This document shows, in pieces, positions 10,882-26,834 of a DNA stretch of 64,000 bases. Position numbers and translations under genes: made by a program. This stretch comes from Burkholderiales bacterium (GTDB taxonomy: Bacteria > Pseudomonadota > Gammaproteobacteria > Burkholderiales > SG8-39). Numbering within the stretch: position 1 is the first letter of the stretch; the number at the start of each line of letters is the position of its first letter. The stretch spans positions 1 through 64,000 of the forward strand of contig JAOAFL010000058.1 of NCBI GenBank assembly GCA_026416295.1, written 5' to 3'. The notes beneath the pieces were generated by a model. The model searched no databases and was not told the origin of the DNA. It saw nothing but the letters and a program-made list of their open reading frames with translations.

Positions 10882-11817
10882 TCAGCGGGCTGGCGGCACT
10901 GTCGCGCCGAACTGCTCGGCAAGCAGCCGCTCGCCCTGCTCCAGCACGAAGTAGCGGAACGCCTCCGCCGCCGGCGAGAGCGCTTTCGCGCGGATGTTGA
11001 CGATGTACCAGCGGCGCATCACCGGCGTGCCGGCGATGTCGAGCAGCGCGAGCTGGCCGACCGAAAGCTCCAGGCCCGCGGTGTGCAGCGACAGAAAGGC
11101 AAGGCCCATTCCGGCGATCACCGCCTGCTTGATCGTCTCGTTGCTCGACATCTCCATGATCGGTCGCACCGCGAGGCGGTGTTCGCGGAGGAAATGCTCC
11201 ATCGCGGCGCGGGTGCCGGAGCCCGGCTCTCGCACGATGAAGGGCTCGCCTTCGAGCGCCTTCGGCGCGATTTCCCGCCGGCCCGCGAGCGGGTACGAGG
11301 GCGACGCGAGTACGCCCAGGGGATGGGCGGCGAAGGGTTCGGCGCGCGTGTCGAGCTCGCGCGGCGGCCGACCCATCACCGCCAGATCGACCTCGTTGTC
11401 GTGCAGCAGCCGCGAAAGCTGCTCGCGGTTGCCCACCGCGAGCCGAATTTCGACCGCCGGATGCTCGGCGCGAAAGCGCGCGAGCAGCCGCGGCAGGAAG
11501 TATTTCGCCGTGCTCACCATGCCGATCGTCATCCGGCCGCCCTCTGCGCGACGCAGCACCGACATCGCGTCGGCTGCCTCCTTGAGGGTCGCGAGGACGC
11601 GCCGGGCGTAAACGAGCAGGTATTCGCCCGGCATGGTCAGCCGCACCCCGCGCCCAGCCCGCTCGAAGAGCGGCAAGCCGACCACCGCCTCGAGATCCTT
11701 CACCAGCATCGAAACCGCCGGTTGAGTGAGGTGAAGCTCCTCTGCCGCGCGGGCGAAGCTTCCATGTTTCGCTACCGACGCGAACGCGGTCAGTTGCTTG
11801 AGCGTCGCACCTCGCAT
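10882..11817 (-). CDS. cbbR: LysR-type regulator, CbbR-like
   Basis: N-terminal HTH LKQLTAFASVAKHGSFARAAEELHLTQPAVSMLVKDLE; divergent from cbbL. Confidence 0.9.
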   Translation of the reverse strand: MRGATLKQLTAFASVAKHGSFARAAEELHLTQPAVSMLVKDLEAVVGLPLFERAGRGVRLTMPGEYLLVYARRVLATLKEAADAMSVLRRAEGGRMTIGMVSTAKYFLPRLLARFRAEHPAVEIRLAVGNREQLSRLLHDNEVDLAVMGRPPRELDTRAEPFAAHPLGVLASPSYPLAGRREIAPKALEGEPFIVREPGSGTRAAMEHFLREHRLAVRPIMEMSSNETIKQAVIAGMGLAFLSLHTAGLELSVGQLALLDIAGTPVMRRWYIVNIRAKALSPAAEAFRYFVLEQGERLLAEQFGATVPPAR

Positions 11818-11819
11818 AA

Positions 11820-13316
<1,497 letters not shown>

Positions 13317-13329
13317 ACGGAGCCCGGGA

Positions 13330-13746
13330 ATGCGATTGACGCAAGGCACCTTCTCCTTTCTGCCCGATCTGGACGACGCGCAGATCCGCGCGCAGGTCGA
13401 GTACTGCCTGAAGAACGGCTGGGCGGTGTCGCTCGAGCACACCGACGATCCTCACCCGCGCAACACCTACTGGGAGATGTTCGGCTTGCCGCTCTTCGAT
13501 CTCAAGGACGCGGCGGCGATCCTGTCGCTGATCGAGGAATGCCGCAGGACGTACCCGAACCGCTACATCAAGGTGAACGCGTTCGATTCGACGCGCGGCT
13601 GGGAGGCGCTGCGCCTGTCCTTCATCGTTCACCGGCCGGAAGCGGAGCCCCGCTTCGCCCTCGTTCGCACCGAGGCCGAGGGCCGCAACCTGCGCTATAC
13701 GGCGCATCCGTATGCGGCGTTGCGGCCCGCGGGCGAGCGCTATTGA
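13330..13746 (+). CDS. cbbS: RuBisCO small subunit, red-type
   Basis: [31 protein letters not shown]...[12 protein letters not shown]. Confidence 0.96.
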
Positions 13747-13763
13747 CCCGGGCGGAGCCAACG

Positions 13764-14675
13764 ATGGAGCAGGCGGCGAAGGCGGGACCCGGGCCTGCGC
13801 TCGATCTGCAGGCGCTCTGGCGCGACTCGCAGATCGACGCGGCGCTCGAGTCGCTCGAGCGCGAGCTGGTCGGCCTTTCGCCGGTGAAGACGCGCGTGCG
13901 CGAGATCGCGGCGCTGCTGCTCGTCGAACAGGCGCGCCGCTCGCTCGGCCTGCAGGCGAGCCCGCCGCCGCTGCACATGAGCTTTACCGGAAATCCGGGC
14001 ACAGGAAAGACCACCGTGGCGATGCGCATGGCGTCGATCCTGCACGGCCTCGGCTACGTGCGCAAAGGGCACCTGGTCGCGGTCACGCGCGACGATCTGG
14101 TCGGCCAGTACATCGGCCACACCGCGCCGAAGACCAAGGAAGTGCTCAAGCGCGCGATGGGCGGCGTGCTCTTCATCGACGAGGCCTACTACCTCTACCG
14201 CCCGGAGAACGAGCGCGACTACGGCCAGGAGGCGATCGAGATCCTGCTGCAGGTGATGGAAAACCAGCGCGGCGATCTGGTGGTGATCCTCGCCGGTTAC
14301 CGCGACCGCATGGCGCGTTTCTTCGCCTCCAACCCCGGCATGGCCTCGCGCATCGCGCACCACATCGACTTTCCCGACTACAGCGACGAGGAGCTGTTCC
14401 GCATCGCCGAACTGATGCTCGCGCGCATGAACTACCGCCTGAGCGAGGCGGCGGCCGAGGCGCTGCGCGAGTACATCGCGCTGCGCCGGAAGCAGCCGCA
14501 TTTCGCGAACGCCCGCTCGATCCGCAACGCGCTCGACCGCGCGCGGCTCCGGCACGCGAACCGGCTGTTCGCGCGCCGCGGCGGCGCGCTCGCCGCCGCC
14601 GACCTGACGACGCTCGAGGCCGAGGACTTTCGCGCGAGCCGCGTCTTCCGCGGCGGCGCGGTGGATGCGGCCTGA
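13764..14675 (+). CDS. cbbX: Red-type RuBisCO activase CbbX (AAA+)
   Basis: Walker [10 protein letters not shown], Walker [12 protein letters not shown]; follows cbbS. Confidence 0.96.
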
Positions 14676-15442
14676 TGCTGCAGGCGCTCGTCTTCGACCT
14701 CGACGGCACGCTCGTCGATACCGAAGAGCTGCACCGGCGCGCGTTCAACCAGGCGTTCCGGGCGTTCGCGCTCGACTGGAACTGGGATGCGCCGCTCTAC
14801 GCCGAGCTGCTCGCGGTCTCGGGCGGAGCCGAGAGGATCGCCCGCTACATCGACCGACTGGAGCTCTCGCCTGCCGAAAAGACAGGGTTGCGCCGGCTGG
14901 TGCCCGCCCTGCACCGCACGAAGACGCGCATCTTCGGCGAGCTGGTCGCAGCCGGCGTGCGCGCGCGGCCGGGCGTCGTGCGGCTCGTCGCCGAAGCGCA
15001 CGATGCCGGTCTGCGCCTGGGCGTGGTGGCGAGCTCCGCGGCGGCGAACGCGCTCGCGCTCCTTACCGCCGCGCTCGGGCCTGCGCTCGCCGCCGCCGTG
15101 AGCGCGACGGTGACCGCAGAGCAGGTCGCGCGCCGCAAGCCGGCACCCGATCTCTACGAGCTTGCGCTCGCGACGCTGCGCGTGCCGGCCGCGGCGGCGC
15201 TCGCCTTCGAGGACTCGGCGAACGGCGTCGCCGCGGCGAAGGCCGCCGGGCTGCGCGTGATCGCCACACCCAGCCGCTGGACCGACGGCCAGGACTTCTC
15301 GCGCGCCGATCTGCGGCTGCCCTCTCTCGGCGAACCCGAGGCGCCGCTCGATCGACAGACGCAGCGCGCGCTCGGCGCACCGTGGGTCGACCTCGCGCTG
15401 CTGCGCCGCCGGTTCGCGCCCCCGCGGTTCGCGACCGCCTGA
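14675..15442 (+). CDS. cbbY: HAD-family phosphatase CbbY
   Basis: FDLDGTLVDTEELHRRAFNQAF and FEDSANGVAAAKAAG; overlaps the cbbX stop. Confidence 0.88.
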   Translation: MLQALVFDLDGTLVDTEELHRRAFNQAFRAFALDWNWDAPLYAELLAVSGGAERIARYIDRLELSPAEKTGLRRLVPALHRTKTRIFGELVAAGVRARPGVVRLVAEAHDAGLRLGVVASSAAANALALLTAALGPALAAAVSATVTAEQVARRKPAPDLYELALATLRVPAAAALAFEDSANGVAAAKAAGLRVIATPSRWTDGQDFSRADLRLPSLGEPEAPLDRQTQRALGAPWVDLALLRRRFAPPRFATA

Positions 15443-15459
15443 GCGCACAACGCACCTCG

Positions 15460-16539
15460 ATGCTTCCGGGCGAGCGCACGCTGAGCGGATTCGTTCACGG
15501 CGAAGAGCGCCGGTCTGCGCACGGCACCGGCGGCCTCGCCGCGCTCGTCGAAGACATCGCGCTCGCCGCTGCGCGGATCGCCGAGTTCGTCGGCAAGGGC
15601 GCGCTCGCCGCCGCCCGCCGACCCGCCGGCGCGACCAACGCTTCGGGGGATGCGCCGCAGCCGCTCGCGGCGATCGCGAACGAGATCTTCGTTCGCGCCA
15701 CCCACGGCGCGGAAGCGCTGCCCGCCGCGCTCGCCTCGGGGCAGACGGCGCGGCCGCATCCGGTCGCGTCCGAGCTGCGGCGCGGGCGCTATCTGCTTCT
15801 TTTCGAGGCGCTGGACGCCGCGCCCGACATCGAGGCGAACGCGCCCGCAGGCTCGATCTTCTCGGTGTTGCGCGCGACCGACGGTTCGCGCGAACCCGCC
15901 GAGCGCGATTTCCTCCAGCCGGGGACCGACCAGGTGTGCGCGGGCTATGCGATCTACGGCCCGGCGACGATGCTCGTACTCACCTTCGGCCGCGGCGTGC
16001 ACGCCTTTACGCTCGATCGCGCGCGCGGCGAGTTCGTTCACACGCACCCCGATCTGCGCATCCCGCAGAAGACGACCGAGTTCGCGACCGATCGGGAGAA
16101 CGCGCGCTTTGGGCAGCCGGCGGTGCGGCGTGATGTCGAGGCGCGCCTCGCGGCAAGAAGCGGCGCGCGGGCGCGCGATGTTCACCTGCGCCGCAGCGGG
16201 TCGCTGGTCGCCGAGGCGCATCGCATCCTCGTGCACGGCGGCGCGTTCCTCTCGCTGCGCGGCGAGCGCGAGAACTGCCGCGCCGGGCGGCTGCGGTTGC
16301 TCCACGAAGCGAACCCCATCGGCATGGTGATCGAGCAGGCGGGCGGGCGCGCGAGCACCGGCGACGGACCGGTGCTCGAGGTCGAGCCGCGTTCGCTCGA
16401 GCAGCGCACCGGGTTCGTGTTCGGCGCGCGCCGCGAGGTCGAGCGAATCGAACGCGACCGTCGCGACCGCGACGATCGGCCGTGCGACGCCCCGCTCTTC
16501 GGCGAGCGGGGTCTTTTCCGGACGGGCAGCCGCCTGTAG
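15460..16539 (+). CDS. cbbF: Fructose-1,6-bisphosphatase class I-like protein with altered catalytic motifs
   Basis: FBPase backbone recognisable (FLQPGTDQVCAGYAIYGPATMLVLTFGRGVHAFTLD; EANPIGMVIEQAGGRASTG), but the signature FDPLDGSSNID reads FEALDAAPDIE. Confidence 0.8.
   Translation: MLPGERTLSGFVHGEERRSAHGTGGLAALVEDIALAAARIAEFVGKGALAAARRPAGATNASGDAPQPLAAIANEIFVRATHGAEALPAALASGQTARPHPVASELRRGRYLLLFEALDAAPDIEANAPAGSIFSVLRATDGSREPAERDFLQPGTDQVCAGYAIYGPATMLVLTFGRGVHAFTLDRARGEFVHTHPDLRIPQKTTEFATDRENARFGQPAVRRDVEARLAARSGARARDVHLRRSGSLVAEAHRILVHGGAFLSLRGERENCRAGRLRLLHEANPIGMVIEQAGGRASTGDGPVLEVEPRSLEQRTGFVFGARREVERIERDRRDRDDRPCDAPLFGERGLFRTGSRL
16490..16517 (+). terminator. Terminator-like hairpin inside the 3' end of the FBPase-like ORF
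   Basis: CCCCGCTC-TTCGGC-GAGCGGGG followed by TCTTTT. Confidence 0.5.
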
Positions 16540-16549
16540 CGAGGACGTC

Positions 16550-17455
16550 GTGTCCGCCGAGCACCCGATCATCGCGATCACCGGCTCCTCCGGCGCGGGC
16601 ACCACGTCGGTGTCGAAGACCTTCGCGCAGATCTTCCGCCGCGAGGGGGTAAAGGCCGCCTTCGTCCAAGGCGACGCGTTCCATCGCTACGACCGTGCCG
16701 AGATGCGCGAGAAGATGGCCGAGGCGCTCGCGCGCGGCAACCATCACTTCAGCCATTTCGGGCCGGAGGCGAACCTGTTCGAAGAGCTGGAGGGGCTTTT
16801 TCGCAACTACGCCGAGACCGGGCGCGGGCGCACGCGCAAGTATCTGCACGACGAGCAGGAAGCCGCGCTCTACGGCCAGAAGCCCGGCACCTTCACCGCC
16901 TGGGAGGATCTGCCCGCCGGTACCGACGTGCTTGTCTACGAAGGGCTGCACGGCGGCGTGGTGACCGACACGGTCAACGTCGCGCAGCACGTGGATCTCC
17001 TGATCGGGGTCGTGCCGGTGATCAACCTGGAGTGGATCCAGAAGCTGCACCGCGACCGCGCGACGCGCGGCTACTCGACCGAGGCGGTGACCGACACCAT
17101 CCTGCGCCGCATGCCCGATTACGTGCGCTACATCGTGCCGCAGTTCTCGCGCACGCACATCAACTTCCAGCGCGTGCCGGTGGTCGACACCTCCAACCCT
17201 TTCATCGCGCGCCATGTGCCCACCGCCGACGAATCCATGCTCGTCATCCGCTTCGCCAACCCGCGGGGCATCGATTTTCCCTACCTGCTCGCGATGCTGC
17301 ACGACTCCTTCATGTCGCGGCCGAACACGATCGTATGCCCCGGCGGAAAGATGGACCTCGCGATGCAGCTCATCTTCACGCCGATGATCTGGCGCCTGGT
17401 GGAGCAGCGCCGCCGGGCGCTCGCGGCCGAGGAGCGCGCGCCGCTCCGGATCTAG
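16550..17455 (+). CDS. cbbP: Phosphoribulokinase
   Basis: GTG start, AITGSSGAGTTSVSKTFAQIFRREGVKAAFVQGDAFHRYDR... Confidence 0.95.
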   Translation: MSAEHPIIAITGSSGAGTTSVSKTFAQIFRREGVKAAFVQGDAFHRYDRAEMREKMAEALARGNHHFSHFGPEANLFEELEGLFRNYAETGRGRTRKYLHDEQEAALYGQKPGTFTAWEDLPAGTDVLVYEGLHGGVVTDTVNVAQHVDLLIGVVPVINLEWIQKLHRDRATRGYSTEAVTDTILRRMPDYVRYIVPQFSRTHINFQRVPVVDTSNPFIARHVPTADESMLVIRFANPRGIDFPYLLAMLHDSFMSRPNTIVCPGGKMDLAMQLIFTPMIWRLVEQRRRALAAEERAPLRI

Positions 17456-19783: not shown

Positions 19784-20596
19784 ATGTTCACCGTCAATCC
19801 GTTCGCGAGCGTCGCCGGCGCGCTGTCGCCCGCGTTCATGCAGTGGTACGTGGTCGCGATGATCGCGCTCGTCGCGCTCGGCACGATCTTCGACGTCGTG
19901 CACAAGGGCAGCGCACGGTACTTCTTCGAGAACTGGCGCCGCACGCGGGAAAGCGGGGCGCGCGCGGTCGGCGCAAGAGAACTCCTCGGCATCGCGGTGC
20001 AGACGCTCCTCGTCGACGTGCTCGCCTCGGGCGAGTTCTGCAACCTGCGCCGGCGGATCGCGCACCTGCTCGGGATGTACGGATTCGTGTTCTACGTCGT
20101 CGCCACCGCGGTGCTCGTGTTCGATCCGGCCGCGGCGCCGTTCTGGATCGCGCTCTGGTGGCTCGGTGCGGCGCTCGTCTGCGTCGGCGGCTACTGGTTC
20201 TGGTTCTTCATCCGCGTGGACGTCGCCGCCGAAGGCCACTCGCCGTTCCGGGTGATGCGCGCCGACCTCTTCATCCTGTCGCTGCTGGCGAGCGCGACGC
20301 TCGCGCTCGTGTGGGCAGCCGCCGGCGGCGGAACCGGCGTGCTGTTCTGGCTGTACCTTCTCGCGACCGCCGTGCTCTTCGGCGGCGTGCCGTGGTCGAA
20401 GTTCGCGCACATGTTCTTCAAGCCGGCGGCAGCGTTCGAGAAGCGCCTCGCGCAGGCGAACGGAAGCTTCGAGAACCTGCCGACGCTGAGCCGCGACGAT
20501 CCGGAGCAGCGCCTGCGCCACTCGATGACGCTGCTTCGCGACGCCCCGATGGACATGGGGCTCGGCATCACGCGGGAGGCGCCGCGGCACTATTGA
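19784..20596 (+). CDS. aprM: AprM-like membrane anchor of APS reductase
   Basis: Hydrophobic 270 aa ORF directly before aprBA. Confidence 0.85.
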   Translation: MFTVNPFASVAGALSPAFMQWYVVAMIALVALGTIFDVVHKGSARYFFENWRRTRESGARAVGARELLGIAVQTLLVDVLASGEFCNLRRRIAHLLGMYGFVFYVVATAVLVFDPAAAPFWIALWWLGAALVCVGGYWFWFFIRVDVAAEGHSPFRVMRADLFILSLLASATLALVWAAAGGGTGVLFWLYLLATAVLFGGVPWSKFAHMFFKPAAAFEKRLAQANGSFENLPTLSRDDPEQRLRHSMTLLRDAPMDMGLGITREAPRHY

Positions 20597-20646
20597 GGCG
20601 CCGCGGCCGGGCGATTCGATCCGTGACGAGCAAGGGAGACTGACGA

Positions 20647-21126
20647 ATGCCGACCTTCGTCTACATGACGAGGTGCGACGGGTGCGGCCACTGCGTCGAC
20701 ATCTGCCCGTCGGACATCATGCACATCGACAAAACGTATCGGCGCGCCTACAACATCGAGCCGAACATGTGCTGGGAGTGCTACTCGTGCGTCAAGGCCT
20801 GCCCCCAGCACGCGATCGACGTGCGCGGCTACGCCGATTTCGCGCCGCTCGGGCACAGCGTGCGCGTGCACCGCGACGAGCAGCGCGGCACGATCGCCTG
20901 GCGGATCAAGTTCCGCAACGGCACCGAGAAGAACTTCCTCTCGCCGATCACCACCAAGCCCTGGGGGCAGGCGATCCCGGACCTGCGCAAGGTGCCGCCG
21001 CCGACCAAAGAAATGCGCGCGAGCCAGCTCCTTTTCAACGAACCGAAATACCTGCGCTTCGACGACGGCGGCCTGCGCACGCTCAAGGACGCGGGTCTCA
21101 CGTTCAAGAAAGGCGTGTTCTACTAA
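20647..21126 (+). CDS. aprB: APS reductase beta subunit
   Basis: MPTFVYMTRCDGCGHCVDICPSDIM...CWECYSCVKACPQHAIDVRGYADFAPLG. Confidence 0.97.
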   Translation: MPTFVYMTRCDGCGHCVDICPSDIMHIDKTYRRAYNIEPNMCWECYSCVKACPQHAIDVRGYADFAPLGHSVRVHRDEQRGTIAWRIKFRNGTEKNFLSPITTKPWGQAIPDLRKVPPPTKEMRASQLLFNEPKYLRFDDGGLRTLKDAGLTFKKGVFY

Positions 21127-22991
21127 TGGCCTACGACACCATCATCGAGGACGGCATCGACGTCCTGATCATCGGCGGCGGCATGGGCGGCTGCGGCGCC
21201 GCGTTCGAGGCGCGCTACTGGGGGCAGGACAAGAAGATCGTGATCGCCGAAAAGGCGAACATCGACCGCTCCGGCGCGGTCGCGCAGGGGCTGTACGCGA
21301 TCAACTGCTACATGGGCACGCGCTGGGGCGAGAACCAGCCGGAGGATCATGTGCGCTACGCGCGCATCGACCTCATGGGCATGGTGCGCGAGGACCTTCA
21401 GTTCGACATGGCGCGCCACGTCGATTCGACGGTGCACCAGTTCGAGGAGTGGGGCCTGCCGATCATGCGCAACCCGAAGACCGGGCGCTACCAGCGCGAA
21501 GGCCGCTGGCAGATCATGATCCACGGCGAATCCTACAAGCCGATCGTCGCCGAGGCGGCGAAAAAATCCGTCGACAAGGTCTTCAACCGCATCTGCGTCA
21601 CCCACCTGCTGATGGACGAGCGCCGCGAGAACCGGGTAGCGGGCGCCGTCGGCTTCAACGTGCGCACCGGCAACTTCCACGTGTTCAAGGCGAAGACGGT
21701 GATCTGCGCGGCGGGCGGCGCCTCCAACATCTTCAAGCCGCGCTCGGTCGGCGAGGGCGCCGGGCGCACCTGGTACGCGCCGTGGTCGTCCGCCTCGGCC
21801 TACGGGCTGCTCATCAACGCCGGCGCGAAGATGACGCAGATGGAAAACCGCATCGTGCTCGCGCGCTTCAAGGACGGCTACGGGCCGGTCGGCGCCTATT
21901 TTCTGCACCTCAAGACCTACACGCAGAACGGCTACGGCGAGGAGTACGAATCGAAGTGGTGGCCCGAGCTGCAGAAGATGGTCGGCAAGGAGTACCTCGA
22001 CCCGGAATCCTGGCACCTCACCCACCGGCCGATTCCGACCTGCCTGCGCAACCACGCGATCATCGCCGAGATCAACGCCGGCCGCGGTCCGATCCACATG
22101 GTGACGATGCGCGCCTTCCAGGACCCGCATCTGGAGGAAGTCGGCTGGGAGAACTTCCTCGGCATGACGGTCGGGCAGGCGGTGCTGTGGGCCGCAACCG
22201 ACGTCGATCCGAAGAACGAGAACCCGGAGCTGATCACCTCGGAACCCTACGTGATGGGCTCGCACGCGACCGGCTCGGGCGCCTGGTGCTCGGGGCCGGA
22301 GGACCTCTCGCCGCCGGAGTACTTCTGGGGCTACAACCGCATGACGACGGTGCACGGCCTCTTCGGCGCGGGCGACGCGGTGGGCGGCACGCCGCATGCG
22401 TTTTCGTCCGGCTCGTTCACCGAAGGGCGGCTCGCGGCGAAGGCCGCGTGCAAGTATATCGACGACGGCAAGGCCGAGGGTATCGTCGTGTCGCAGGCGC
22501 AGATCGAGCGCCTGAAGGCCGAGGTCTACAAGCCGCTCGAGCACTACCGGATCTATCGCAACGCGGTGGTCGCGGGCGACGTCAACCCGTACTACCTCAC
22601 CCCCCAGCAGGGGCTCGATCGGCTGCAGAAGCTGATGGACGAGTACTGCGGCGGCGTGACGGCGAACTACATGACGAACGAGAAGCTGCTCCTCATCGGC
22701 CTGAAGAAGCTCCGCATCCTCGAGGAGGATCTGGAAAAGCTCGCCGCGGCGGACCTGCACCAGCTGCTGCGCGCCTGGGAACTGAAGCACCGGCACCGCG
22801 CGGCCGAATGCGTGACGCACCACACGCTGTTCCGCAAGGAAACGCGCTGGCCGGGCTACTACTATCGCGGCGACTACCTCAGGCTGGACGACAAGAACTG
22901 GCACGTGCTCACCGTGTCGCGCCGCGATCCGCAGACGGGCGAATACACGATGGAAAAGGCGCCGCTCTACCACCTGGTGGAGGACAAGTAG
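21126..22991 (+). CDS. aprA: APS reductase alpha subunit
   Basis: VLIIGGGMGGCGAAFEARYWG...EKANIDRSGAVAQGLYAINCYMG...; 1-nt overlap with aprB. Confidence 0.97.
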   Translation: MAYDTIIEDGIDVLIIGGGMGGCGAAFEARYWGQDKKIVIAEKANIDRSGAVAQGLYAINCYMGTRWGENQPEDHVRYARIDLMGMVREDLQFDMARHVDSTVHQFEEWGLPIMRNPKTGRYQREGRWQIMIHGESYKPIVAEAAKKSVDKVFNRICVTHLLMDERRENRVAGAVGFNVRTGNFHVFKAKTVICAAGGASNIFKPRSVGEGAGRTWYAPWSSASAYGLLINAGAKMTQMENRIVLARFKDGYGPVGAYFLHLKTYTQNGYGEEYESKWWPELQKMVGKEYLDPESWHLTHRPIPTCLRNHAIIAEINAGRGPIHMVTMRAFQDPHLEEVGWENFLGMTVGQAVLWAATDVDPKNENPELITSEPYVMGSHATGSGAWCSGPEDLSPPEYFWGYNRMTTVHGLFGAGDAVGGTPHAFSSGSFTEGRLAAKAACKYIDDGKAEGIVVSQAQIERLKAEVYKPLEHYRIYRNAVVAGDVNPYYLTPQQGLDRLQKLMDEYCGGVTANYMTNEKLLLIGLKKLRILEEDLEKLAAADLHQLLRAWELKHRHRAAECVTHHTLFRKETRWPGYYYRGDYLRLDDKNWHVLTVSRRDPQTGEYTMEKAPLYHLVEDK

Positions 22992-22994
22992 CGA

Positions 22995-23015
22995 CCGCGG
23001 GCGACTCGCCCGCGG
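22995..23015 (+). other. GC-rich hairpin directly after the aprA stop
   Basis: CCGCGGGC-GACTC-GCCCGCGG, no T-tract. Confidence 0.4.
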
Positions 23016-23034
23016 CGATCCGCTGTCGCCGCGC

Positions 23035-23385
23035 GTGAACATCACCGACCGATCGGACGAGGAGATCCTCGCGTGGGCCGAGCCGATGTGGCGCAACCTC
23101 GTGCGCAGCTCGAACGCCGGCAACTACGGCGAGTTCGCGCGCGACTTCGCGCGGCCCTTCGCGCTCGCGATGGACGAGGTCGCGTTCGGGCACCAGTTCG
23201 CGAACAGCGCGCTCGCGCGCGAGCTGTCCGAGGACTTCGACCCGCTCGGCATCCTGCGCCGCGGCGCGCACGTGACGGTGCTCTTTCGCCAGCGCAGCAC
23301 CCGCCGGCCGGGCGAATGGCTCGGGCGGCTCGTTCTCGGCTACGAGGACGGAAAAGTGAAGATCTTCGGCGCGACCGTTTTCTGA
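23035..23385 (+). CDS. Hypothetical protein of the apr locus
   Basis: 116 aa ORF, GTG start, MNITDRSDEEILAWAEPMWRNLV..., tightly packed between aprA and the SlyD-like gene. Confidence 0.7.
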   Translation: MNITDRSDEEILAWAEPMWRNLVRSSNAGNYGEFARDFARPFALAMDEVAFGHQFANSALARELSEDFDPLGILRRGAHVTVLFRQRSTRRPGEWLGRLVLGYEDGKVKIFGATVF

Positions 23386-23397
23386 CCGGAGCCTAGC

Positions 23398-23907
23398 GTG
23401 GCCGAGACCGTTCGCGCCGGAAAATACGTCGAGCTCGCCTACAAGGTGAGCGACCGGCAGACGGGACGCGTGCTGACGGCGGTCGAGTTTCCGCTCGGCT
23501 ACGTGCACGGGTTCAACGAGATCCTGTCGCCCGCGATCCACGCCGCGCTCGAAGGCCGGGCGGCGGGCGACGTGATCGAGGTGCCGATCGACGGTCGGCA
23601 CATCTTCGGCGGCAGGGACGAGTCGCTCGTCGTCGTCGAGCGGCTGGAAAACGTGCCCGAGGAGTACCGACAGGTCGGCATGTCGATCCTCATGGAAAAC
23701 GATCGCGGCGAGCTGCGCACCTTTCACGTCACCCGCATGGACGAGGAGACGCTCACCCTCGACGGCAACAACCCGCTCTGCGAGCGCGAGGTCGTCTTCC
23801 GGCTCGAAGTGCTCGCGGTGCGCGACGCGACCGACGCCGAAAAAGCGGCCGGCGGCCCGCCACCGGCGGCACCCGCGGTCGATTCCTCGCGGCTGCGGCC
23901 GATCTAG
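23398..23907 (+). CDS. SlyD/FKBP-type peptidyl-prolyl isomerase-like protein
   Basis: YVELAYKVSDRQTGRVL...PLGYVHGFNEILSPAIHAALEGRAAGDVIEVPI. Confidence 0.75.
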   Translation: MAETVRAGKYVELAYKVSDRQTGRVLTAVEFPLGYVHGFNEILSPAIHAALEGRAAGDVIEVPIDGRHIFGGRDESLVVVERLENVPEEYRQVGMSILMENDRGELRTFHVTRMDEETLTLDGNNPLCEREVVFRLEVLAVRDATDAEKAAGGPPPAAPAVDSSRLRPI

Positions 23908-23957
23908 CCCGCCGAGGCGCGCGCGTCCCGCCATCGAAACGCATCGTCGGAGGAGTC

Positions 23958-24116
23958 ATGGAAGAGCAGAAACCCCTGCCCAAGGTGCCCGACGGGCACG
24001 CGCGGTTCGTGACCACGCGCCAGTTGCCGCCCACCGAGAAGGGCTTCGTCGGCTTCGAGACGATCTGGGAACCGCCGCACAAGGAGGCGGAGTACGAGAC
24101 GCCGAAAGCGCCGTAG
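23958..24116 (+). CDS. 52-aa small hypothetical protein of the apr locus
   Basis: GGAGGA RBS then MEEQKPLPKVPDGHARFVTTRQLPPTEKGFVGFETIWEPPHKEAEYETPKAP; 7-bp-stem hairpin directly downstream (24118-24136). Confidence 0.6.
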   Translation: MEEQKPLPKVPDGHARFVTTRQLPPTEKGFVGFETIWEPPHKEAEYETPKAP

Positions 24117-24258
24117 CCGGCATCGGCGGGATGCCGCCTGCCGCGCCTTTCGTGCATTACCCTAGCAAATCGCTCGGCTATTCGGGCGCCCGGCTCGCTT
24201 CAAGCGCCAGCGCGTTTATGCTTGAATCAGCTTTTTCTAATACACGCGCAGCGCCCCG

Positions 24259-25185
24259 ATGGCCGACCGGCGGCTCCAGGTCTTTCACGCGGTCGCAAAG
24301 CACCTCTCCTTCACCAAGGCGGCCGAAGCGCTCTTCATGACGCAGCCGGCGGTGACGTTCCAGATCCGCCAGCTCGAGGAACAGTTCAACACGCGGCTCT
24401 TCGACCGCGCGCACGGGCGCATTTCGCTCACGCCGGCCGGGGCGATGGCGTTCGGCTACGCCGAGCGCATCCTCGCGCTCTCGGCCGAGATGGAGGCGCG
24501 CCTGAGGGAAATGAGCGGGCAGATCGCCGGGCCGCTGCTGATCGGCGCGAGCACCACGATCGCCGATTTTCTGCTGCCGCAGGTGCTCGGCGAGTTCAAG
24601 TCCCGCCATCCGGCCGTCTTGCCGCGGCTCTTCGTCGCCAACTCCGAGGCGGTGCAGGGCCGCATCGCCGAGCGCAGCCTCGACCTCGGCTTCATCGAGG
24701 GCGATTCGCATCTGCCCTCTCTCGTCGGCGAAGTCTGCTGCGAGGACGAGCTGCAGGTGGTGTGCGTGCCCTCGCATCCGCTCGCGCGACACAAGTCGAT
24801 TGCGCCCAAGGCGCTCACCGAGCACGCGTATGTCAGCCGCGAGCCCGGCTCGGGAACGCGGCAGGTGATCGACCACTACCTCGAGAAACAGGGTCTTGCG
24901 CCTGCGGCGCTCAACGTCGTGATGGAGGCCGGAAGCCCCGAGGCGCTCAAAGGGCTGGTCGCGACCGGGCTCGGTTTTGCGATCATGTCGCGCGCCACCG
25001 TGGCGAAGGAGGTCCGCCTCGGCCAGCTGGTACGCGTGCCGCTCGCTCCGCCGCTCATCCGCAACCTGTCGGTGGTCTATCCGCGCGAGCGCATCCACTC
25101 CGGGCTCGTCACCCGCTTCATCGATTTCGCCAAAGAGCGGCTCGGGAACGCGCGCGCGCCCGAGACCGCGGCCGCGCGCCGCTGA
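24259..25185 (+). CDS. LysR-family transcriptional regulator
   Basis: RLQVFHAVAKHLSFTKAAEALFMTQPAVTFQIRQLEEQFNTRLF. Confidence 0.9.
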   Translation: MADRRLQVFHAVAKHLSFTKAAEALFMTQPAVTFQIRQLEEQFNTRLFDRAHGRISLTPAGAMAFGYAERILALSAEMEARLREMSGQIAGPLLIGASTTIADFLLPQVLGEFKSRHPAVLPRLFVANSEAVQGRIAERSLDLGFIEGDSHLPSLVGEVCCEDELQVVCVPSHPLARHKSIAPKALTEHAYVSREPGSGTRQVIDHYLEKQGLAPAALNVVMEAGSPEALKGLVATGLGFAIMSRATVAKEVRLGQLVRVPLAPPLIRNLSVVYPRERIHSGLVTRFIDFAKERLGNARAPETAAARR

Positions 25186-25207
25186 GCGGGGCGCGATAAT
25201 ACGCGCG

Positions 25208-25603
25208 ATGGTGGAGCTCGATCCGAAGGAAGCCTACGAGTTCCTGCAGCAGAACCCGGACGCGCTGTTCATCGACGTGCGCAGCGAGATGGAGTACCTC
25301 TTCGTCGGCCATCCGGTCGGCGCGCTGCACGTGTCCTGGAACGACGGGCCGGACTGGGAGGTGAATCCGCACTTCGTCGGCCAGGTGAAGAAACTCGCCG
25401 GCACCGACCACAGCACGCGCCCGATCGTGCTCATCTGCCGCAGCGGCAACCGCTCGCGCGAGGCGGGCGAGGAACTGGAGCGCCACGGCTTCACGCGCAT
25501 CTACCACGTGCGCCACGGCTTCGAGGGCGACCTCGACAGCCGCCACCGGCGCAACTCGAAGAACGGCTGGCGCTTCGACGGGCTGCCCTGGGAGCAGTGC
25601 TGA
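25208..25603 (+). CDS. Rhodanese-like sulfurtransferase
   Basis: FIDVRSEMEYLFVGHPVGALHVSW and active loop CRSGNRS. Confidence 0.9.
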   Translation: MVELDPKEAYEFLQQNPDALFIDVRSEMEYLFVGHPVGALHVSWNDGPDWEVNPHFVGQVKKLAGTDHSTRPIVLICRSGNRSREAGEELERHGFTRIYHVRHGFEGDLDSRHRRNSKNGWRFDGLPWEQC

Positions 25604-25616
25604 AGCCGCGCCGGGG

Positions 25617-26834
25617 CTACCGCGCCGAGTGGCCGGTGAGCTTCACCTCGACGCGCTCGTGCGCTTCCAGCCCCGCGTAGTACTCGCGCAGGATTTCGAG
25701 CACCTCCGGCCGCGAGAATTCCGGTGGCACCGGGCTGCCTTCCGAGAGCCACTTGCGCAGTTTCGTTCCCGAGACGAGGAGCCGATCCGCGTCCTCGTGC
25801 GGGCAGGTGCGGCCCGAGGCCATGCCGCCGCAGCGGTAGCACCAGAACGTCCAGTCCATCTTCATCGGCCGGATCTCGAGCGCCCCGCGCGGGATCTCGT
25901 CGAAGATTCGGTGCGCGTCGAACGGCCCGTAGTAGCTGCCCACCCCCGCGTGGTCGCGCCCGACGATCAGGTGCGAACAGCCGTAGTTCTGGCGAAAGAG
26001 GGCGTGCAGCAGCGCCTCGCGCGGGCCGGCGTAGCGCATATCGAGCGGATAGCCCGCCTGAAGCACCGTGTCCTTGCGGAAATAGCGCTCGATCAGCACC
26101 GCGATCGCGCGCGTGCGCACTTCGGCCGGGATGTCCCCGGGCTTGAGATTGCCGAGGAGCGAATGGATGAGCACGCCGTCGCAGGTCTCGATCGCGACCT
26201 TCACCAGGTATTCGTGCGAGCGGTGCATCGGGTTGCGGGTCTGGAACGCCGCGATGCGCGACCAGCCGAGGCGCTCGAACGCGGCGCGGGTTTCGGCCGG
26301 CGTCATGAAAAGCGCGCCGTAGCGCGCGCGGAATCCGCCGTCGGAGAGGACGCGCACCGGGCCGGCCAGATTCACCTCGCCCTGCGCCATCACCATTTTC
26401 ACCCCCGGATGCTCCGGGTCGGTGGTGCGAAACACCATCGCGCACTCGTGCGCCTTGTCGATCGTGTATTTTTCGGTGATGCGCATCGTCGCGAGGATGT
26501 CGTCGCTCTCGGGGTCAAGGAGCGCGACCTCTGCGCCGACCCTCACGCCGTCCGCGGCGGCGCGCTCGGCCGACAGCGTGATCGGGATCGGCCAGAACAG
26601 ACCGTTCGCGAGCTCCATGCCGTCGCAGACGCGCTGCCAGTCGCCGTACGTCATGAACCCCTCGAGCGGCGTGAAGCCGCCGATGCCGAGCATCACGAGG
26701 TCGCCCTTTTCGCGCGAGCTGATGCGCAGTTTCGGAAGCGTTTCGGCGCGGCGCCGCTCTTCGGCGGCGTGCGCCGGATCGAGCAGCAGGGGCTTCAGGC
26801 CCCGGCCGCCGTGGGGAGCGACAAGACCGGGCAT
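25617..26834 (-). CDS. sat: ATP sulfurylase
   Basis: [32 protein letters not shown], CxxCG zinc-type motif. Confidence 0.95.

Follow-up and report, generated by a model that had tools for sequence, protein, structure and literature searches.

The cbb operon and its bisphosphatase gene

The window, by which we mean the whole analysed stretch of 64,000 nucleotides, carries a Calvin-cycle operon in the order cbbR<-|->cbbL-cbbS-cbbX-cbbY(HAD)-fbp-prk. A cbbR-like LysR regulator (10882-11817, minus strand), an open reading frame with an equivalent at the same position in related operons, is divergent from a plus-strand series that begins with cbbL for the RuBisCO large subunit (11862-13316; NF003252, 791 bits), cbbS (13330-13746; PF00101) and cbbX for the RuBisCO activase (13770-14675; TIGR02880, 518 bits). 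A CbbY-like HAD phosphatase gene (14675-15442), recognised by its HAD motifs and by orthologues in the same place in related operons, precedes fbp, and an intact phosphoribulokinase gene, prk (16550-17455; PF00485; NF011997, 511 bits), follows it directly, so that each neighbour named in the original prediction of a cbb setting is verified. The fbp gene itself (15460-16539, plus strand) is a single open reading frame from ATG to TAG with no internal stop, encoding 359 amino acids. Its product matches the Pfam domains FBPase (PF00316, 4e-35) and FBPase_C (PF18913, 4e-28) over its full length and above the curated cut-offs, and is by both domains a class I fructose-1,6-bisphosphatase (FBPase); alignment with about 95 intact orthologues and the flanking cbbY and prk identify it as a degenerate orthologue of CbbF, the class I FBPase of cbb operons. 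Against NF006779, the NCBIfam equivalog model for class 1 FBPase, it scores 303 bits, below the cut-off of 349 expected of the active enzyme.

Several further features of the region were recorded. Two forms of the RuBisCO part of the operon alternate among genomes, with only about 60% of CbbL in common: the window type, which has cbbX, and one that lacks it (window 11862-14675 compared with L056-L063 and L059, from the same genus and family). The cbbR, cbbY, fbp and prk genes keep their positions across this switch, and both forms occur even inside one genus (G000/G008 versus G003/G006). In the CbbY-like gene, too, GC at the first and second codon positions is higher than in its relatives. Sulfur-oxidation genes follow the cbb cluster at 19784-26834, among them a QmoC-like membrane protein and aprB (TIGR02060), together with AprA-like and Sat-like open reading frames assigned by reading alone.

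Loss of the active site

In FBPase the metals are bound by D118, D121, E280, E97 and the L120 carbonyl, D74 and E98 hold the base waters, and the mobile dynamic loop contains D68 (pig numbering; PMC5639204, PMC3785478). The motif readings that first drew attention to the gene, FEALDAAPDIE (15802-15834), ASGQ and LRRSGS, are all present and line up without offset with the corresponding motifs in close orthologues. By alignment, the position of D74, part of the catalytic base relay, is occupied by Ala (GCG, 15667-15669), the metal and base residues E97-E98 by Gly-Gln (GGG CAG, 15739-15744), giving ASGQ at the SEE site, and DPLDGSSNID by EALDAAPDIE (15805-15834), in which D118E, G122A, S123A, S124P, N125D and D127E accompany a retained D121; the core phosphate/metal motif DPLDGSSN, expected of an active enzyme, thus reads EALDAAPD. 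The 6-phosphate pocket is damaged at four of its seven positions, with Asp at N212 (16090-16092) and Ser at Y264 (16252-16254) among the changes, and Arg-Arg stands at R243-Y/W244 (16189-16194), where the aromatic residue is lost and R243 kept. The full list of lesions is D74A, E97G, E98Q, D118E, P119A, G122A, S123A, S124P, N125D, D127E, N212D, Y/W244R, Y264S and Y279H, against L120, D121, R243, K274 (as R), R276 and E280 (16306-16308, in LLHEANP), which are kept, as is the C-terminal tail DAPLFGERGLFR (16486-16521), a feature specific to cbb-type FBPases that persists in degenerate copies. The D68 position is D in the window protein and E in 95 of 95 intact orthologues. Within the metal and base set of D68, D74, E97, E98, D118, D121 and E280, just D121 and E280 are unchanged; for the four metal ligands singled out in the original prediction this means that D121 and E280 survive and that E97 (to Gly) and D118 (to Glu) are lost.

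The changes are concentrated in the active site. Among 138 sites conserved in at least 95% of 95 intact cbb-type orthologues, 15 of 21 active-site residues are changed in the window protein, compared with 27 of 117 other conserved sites (Fisher p=3e-5), the list of active-site positions drawing in part on background about the pig enzyme; with the residues flagged beforehand set aside the comparison is 5/8 against 27/117 (p=0.026). Intact orthologues are changed at 0-1% of the 138 positions, and the five nearest orthologues of the window protein (59-61% identity), with nearly all of the roughly 95 others, retain the motifs. The window protein reaches 61% identity with its nearest orthologue, in G006, where about 85% is typical between intact orthologues. 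The original prediction described a well-kept fold with neither stop nor frameshift; the open frame stands, but the fold is less well kept than was supposed, given this identity and the alteration of 23% of the other conserved sites. It is clear that most of the catalytic residues of this CbbF have been lost, which places it among pseudoenzymes in the sense of enzyme homologues without their catalytic residues, and classical FBPase activity is, as judged from these residues, very unlikely.

Reading frame and predicted structure

A codon-by-codon comparison of the window gene with its G006 orthologue shows a single frame with one in-frame 3-base insertion and no compensating frameshifts. The odd motifs are therefore the product of substitutions plus that insertion and not a local frame artefact, and a frameshift pair or assembly error at the motifs is ruled out. 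Differences from the nearest orthologue amount to about 300 bases, spread along the gene and distributed 93/73/134 over the three codon positions. GC3 is in the normal range of the genome; GC at the first and second codon positions is 0.777 and 0.552, as against about 0.68 and 0.46 in intact copies. None of the usual marks of a pseudogene (stop, frameshift or truncation) is seen, the frame being open and both ends intact, which is weak evidence in GC-rich DNA: a GC-rich neutral simulation yields only about two stops per 90 missense changes, with P(0)=0.14, and because of this the lack of stops was dismissed as a sign of selection.

The window protein shares with CbbF and other class I FBPases (PF00316 plus PF18913, NF006779; the pig and human enzymes, PDB 1EYI) the two-domain fold, the length, the slot before prk and the cbb-specific tail, and differs from them in lacking the catalytic base, most metal ligands, the 1-phosphate loop and part of the 6-phosphate pocket, and in its sub-cut-off score. 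The solved structure nearest in sequence is the Stenotrophomonas FBPase (PDB 7K74), at 39% identity. An AlphaFold2 model of the window protein (mean pLDDT 79, pTM 0.83) superposes on R-state pig FBPase 1EYI, solved with Mg, F6P and phosphate, with a TM-score of 0.93 by target length; the corresponding model for G035 has a pLDDT of 76.5 and a poor stretch at 195-233. The window model shows that the sequence is compatible with the FBPase fold, and it counts for little as proof of how the degenerate protein itself folds, since the underlying alignment consists mostly of intact enzymes.

Degenerate copies in related genomes

Across 98 genomes of the family, the cbb-type FBPase gene is flanked by cbbY and prk, or holds an equivalent position, and almost all copies are intact. 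The exceptions and their counterparts elsewhere in the order carry lesions of their own. G035 and G100, which belong to two genera, both lack the same 12 residues of the dynamic loop and carry R276E; in place of SEE they have SEA/SKA, and in place of DPLDGSSN they have DPLCGAPE/DPLVGAPG. G028 and G111 have in common STD/ATD, FDAIDRPSN, D74A and E280D. In another family of the order, a clade of five species in four genera (G055, G140, G150, G171 and G129) carries DPLNGSGNLD (D121N), a loop deletion, D74E or its equivalent, an altered E98 and R276G; the exact codon pattern for DPLNGSGNLD, sought in 399 genomes drawn from across the order, was matched in 4, all of them in that one family. Culturable bacteria are among the carriers of the DPLNGSGN form. 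The DPLNGSGN copy of G171 (L218:7980-11259) is one of a tandem pair, with an intact cbbF immediately on one side and prk immediately on the other, and transketolase, GAPDH and PGK genes beyond prk; that of G129 (L220:8623-9669) sits beside urease and SNF2 helicase genes, away from prk. A further altered copy, with APDG for SEE and DALDCSNN, is found in G126 (L215, G126:C1:1353569-1354645), a genome with three FBPase genes.

These relatives resemble the window copy in belonging to the same orthologous group, in having lost D74 and E98 and, usually, in occupying the slot before prk (G035/G100, G028/G111 and the DPLNGSGN clade); they differ in the lesions themselves and in that constraint after the loss is proven for them. 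The lost ligands vary by lineage, with D121 replaced by C, V or N in some and E97/E98 together with D74 in others, two lineages having deleted the dynamic loop, and no shared new set of acidic or nucleophilic residues was found among the degenerate lineages compared. G100, G028/G111 and the DPLNGSGN clade keep most residues of the sugar/6-phosphate pocket, their metal and 1-phosphate side being disabled, and the tail DAPLFGxRGLFR is retained. The copies of G035, G028, G055 and G171 score 366-426 bits against NF006779, above its cut-off of 349, and would thus receive the NCBI name "class 1 fructose-bisphosphatase". For the window lineage no close relative with the same changes was found, and FBPase matches in a plasmid search were all below 60% identity.

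In the same survey, partial lesions were seen in otherwise intact copies at L127 and L165 (D74H with a rewritten loop; E97K), and at L085 (G064:C8:1565-2641) a cbb-type fbp is split across two frames, either by an assembly frameshift or by a true break. Close cbb-type FBPases also occur in records titled Chloroflexi or Actinobacteria (Mycolicibacterium, Pseudonocardia; L107, L121, L124, L126, L128, L136, L148, L151, L165 and L167), a pattern attributable to gene transfer or to binning error.

In the trees, G028/G111, G035/G100, the DPLNGSGN clade and G126 occupy separate places, each beside intact enzymes, which implies at least four origins of degenerate CbbF within one order. A single origin of all the degenerate copies is unsupported by these trees. 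The window protein groups with intact enzymes of the G006/G014 type (support 87/87), its long branch (about 1.0 for fbp against 0.097 for prk) making the exact place unsure, and the AU test does not reject shared ancestry of the window copy with G035/G100 alone (p=0.15).

Codon-model evidence on selection after the loss

A custom-written codon model (GY94, F3x4) with one omega per branch class, shared by all sites, was fitted to three degenerate lineages and to the window. For G028/G111 the stem omega is 0.53, not different from 1, and the tips give 0.061 against a background of 0.055 (2dlnL of 233 versus omega of 1); for G035/G100 the stem is 1.16, again not different from 1, and the tips 0.064 against 0.066 (2dlnL 257). 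The stem of the DPLNGSGN clade has an omega of at least 1, at the upper bound on a short branch and not different from 1, and inside the clade omega is 0.057 compared with 0.079 in intact enzymes (2dlnL 803 versus neutrality). In all three lineages, then, a burst of amino-acid change at the loss is followed by constraint at the level of intact enzymes, and, on their sequences, the proteins have the look of pseudoenzymes under selection. Translational coupling to prk, taken as the sole cause of the kept frame, fails both on missense constraint at an omega near 0.06 and on the G129 copy, which lies away from prk.

The window is represented by one long branch, with an omega of 0.139 against a background of 0.060 (2dlnL 8.7 for the difference and 43 versus 1), and a model that splits this branch into an intact phase and a recent neutral one is 4.1 lnL units worse for the same number of parameters. 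On the other side, the 23% of conserved sites changed outside the active site is about what some 90 neutral missense changes would give, and far above the value for any intact orthologue. Continued partial constraint on the window copy is graded likely, rather than proven, because the models give all sites a single omega, synonymous substitutions are close to saturated and the 23% matches a neutral phase; as close relatives with the same changes are absent, selection here cannot be cleanly told from slow decay. The earlier suggestion of selection on the fold without FBPase chemistry therefore holds for the loss of chemistry and, with dN/dS values of 0.057-0.064, for constraint in the three related lineages, and is only moderately supported for the window copy itself.

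Possible alternative enzymes for the bisphosphatase step

The window genome encodes a second class I FBPase at G000:C139:16074-17051 that is intact, with ASEE/VSEE and DPLDGSSNID present and 530 bits against NF006779, and GlpX was found neither there nor in any of the 98 genomes of the family. The genome is therefore able to hydrolyse fructose 1,6-bisphosphate (FBP) without the degenerate gene, which supports the idea that its loss was masked by another bisphosphatase. Its phosphofructokinase (PFK) is of the ATP/mixed type. Families of pyrophosphate-dependent PFK (PPi-PFK) are present in G035, G100, G028 and G055, and PPi-PFK has been reported to substitute for FBPase and sedoheptulose bisphosphatase (SBPase) in other autotrophs (PMC4287430). 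The PPi-PFK-based Calvin cycle of Methylococcus and vent symbionts resembles the present case in that dephosphorylation of FBP and sedoheptulose bisphosphate (SBP) is taken over by another enzyme (PMC4287430); FBPase genes are absent there, whereas here a dead-looking copy is kept, and the window genome has an ATP-type PFK and a second FBPase instead. PPi-PFK does not predict degeneracy, since G003 has it together with an intact CbbF and it is missing from the window genome. No second class I FBPase was found in G035, G100, G055 or G140, the genomes of G055 and G140 being complete and the other two incomplete drafts, and for this reason a hetero-oligomer with an active FBPase was rejected as the mechanism common to all.

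Interpretation

Four other accounts of the window gene have to be weighed. An error or chimera in a metagenome contig might be suspected in a draft genome of 140 contigs, but the spread of base differences over the gene, most numerous at third codon positions, the kept frame, the normal GC3 and the occurrence of like changes in independent genomes make this a negligible prospect. As little can be said for an ordinary FBPase that tolerates its substitutions: the overall family match and the retention of E280, D121, R243 and R276 would fit, but E97, E98, D74 and D118 are the residues on which the metals and the base depend (PMC5639204, PMC3785478) and are invariant in the 95 intact orthologues. 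A repurposed enzyme, whose altered residues serve another reaction or substrate, is improbable though less so; the strong constraint on the degenerate relatives and the survival of D118, E97 and E280 in some of them, and of most of the 6-phosphate pocket in G100, G028/G111 and the DPLNGSGN clade, would suit it, but different ligands are lost in each lineage without a common replacement, and in the window protein the metal ligands, the phosphate loop and the pocket are all lost.

The most substantial competitor, which we regard as a real if lesser possibility, is that the window copy is merely decaying, the second FBPase having relieved selection on a gene that has not yet met a stop or frameshift. 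The intact FBPase elsewhere in the genome, the long fbp branch beside a short one for prk, the shift towards GC-rich codons at positions 1 and 2, the few stops expected under neutrality and the neutral-like toll on conserved sites outside the active site all agree with decay. It is opposed by a branch omega far under 1 and the poorer fit of a neutral phase, by active-site residues having changed three times as often as other conserved residues, by the kept C-terminal tail and by the three sister cases in which constraint is demonstrable.

The explanation we favour, with a probability of roughly 0.52, is that the window gene is a former CbbF, the fructose/sedoheptulose bisphosphatase of the Calvin cycle, that is now a non-catalytic protein of the FBPase fold, likely acting via its folded surface. 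The degenerate proteins would no longer hydrolyse FBP or SBP, that step being carried out by the second FBPase in the window genome or by PPi-PFK in several others, and the retained protein would most likely regulate Calvin-cycle regeneration, by sensing sugar phosphates or as a scaffold, or alternatively join active FBPase as a regulatory subunit in genomes that have such an enzyme. A sugar-phosphate sensor would fit G100, G028/G111 and the DPLNGSGN clade, because most of their pocket is still there and it is the metal and 1-phosphate side that is disabled; for the window protein, whose role we infer from its relatives and which is perhaps further toward loss, a scaffold, an inactive subunit or advancing loss would be more natural, as its pocket is damaged too. 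The slot before prk and the kept tail may point to Calvin-cycle partners, although that slot is not essential, since the G129 copy does without it. Mixed tetramers with active FBPase would be possible in the window genome (G000), G028, G171 and G129, and not in G055/G140. For the order as a whole, we put at even odds the broader proposition that Calvin-cycle operons have repeatedly turned CbbF into a selected non-catalytic regulator of the FBPase fold, a sugar-phosphate sensor or scaffold, sometimes in tandem with the active enzyme, with the window copy as an extreme member.

Pseudoenzymes are a known kind of protein, and what would be new here is a pseudoenzyme line inside the classical class I FBPase family; searches of an open-access collection of papers for FBPase pseudoenzymes and degenerate cbbF found no such protein among Calvin-cycle class I FBPases. 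The retention of apparently dead proteins under strong selection suggests a second, non-catalytic job that is seemingly undescribed. If this is true, a bisphosphatase gene in a carbon-fixation operon would not be evidence of FBPase or SBPase activity, and the NCBI equivalog model passes the relatives that were tested. The bacterial control of the regeneration phase would then have an unrecognised protein component, and the repeated origins, with different lesions and the same outcome, would amount to a natural experiment on how an enzyme loses its chemistry yet stays useful.
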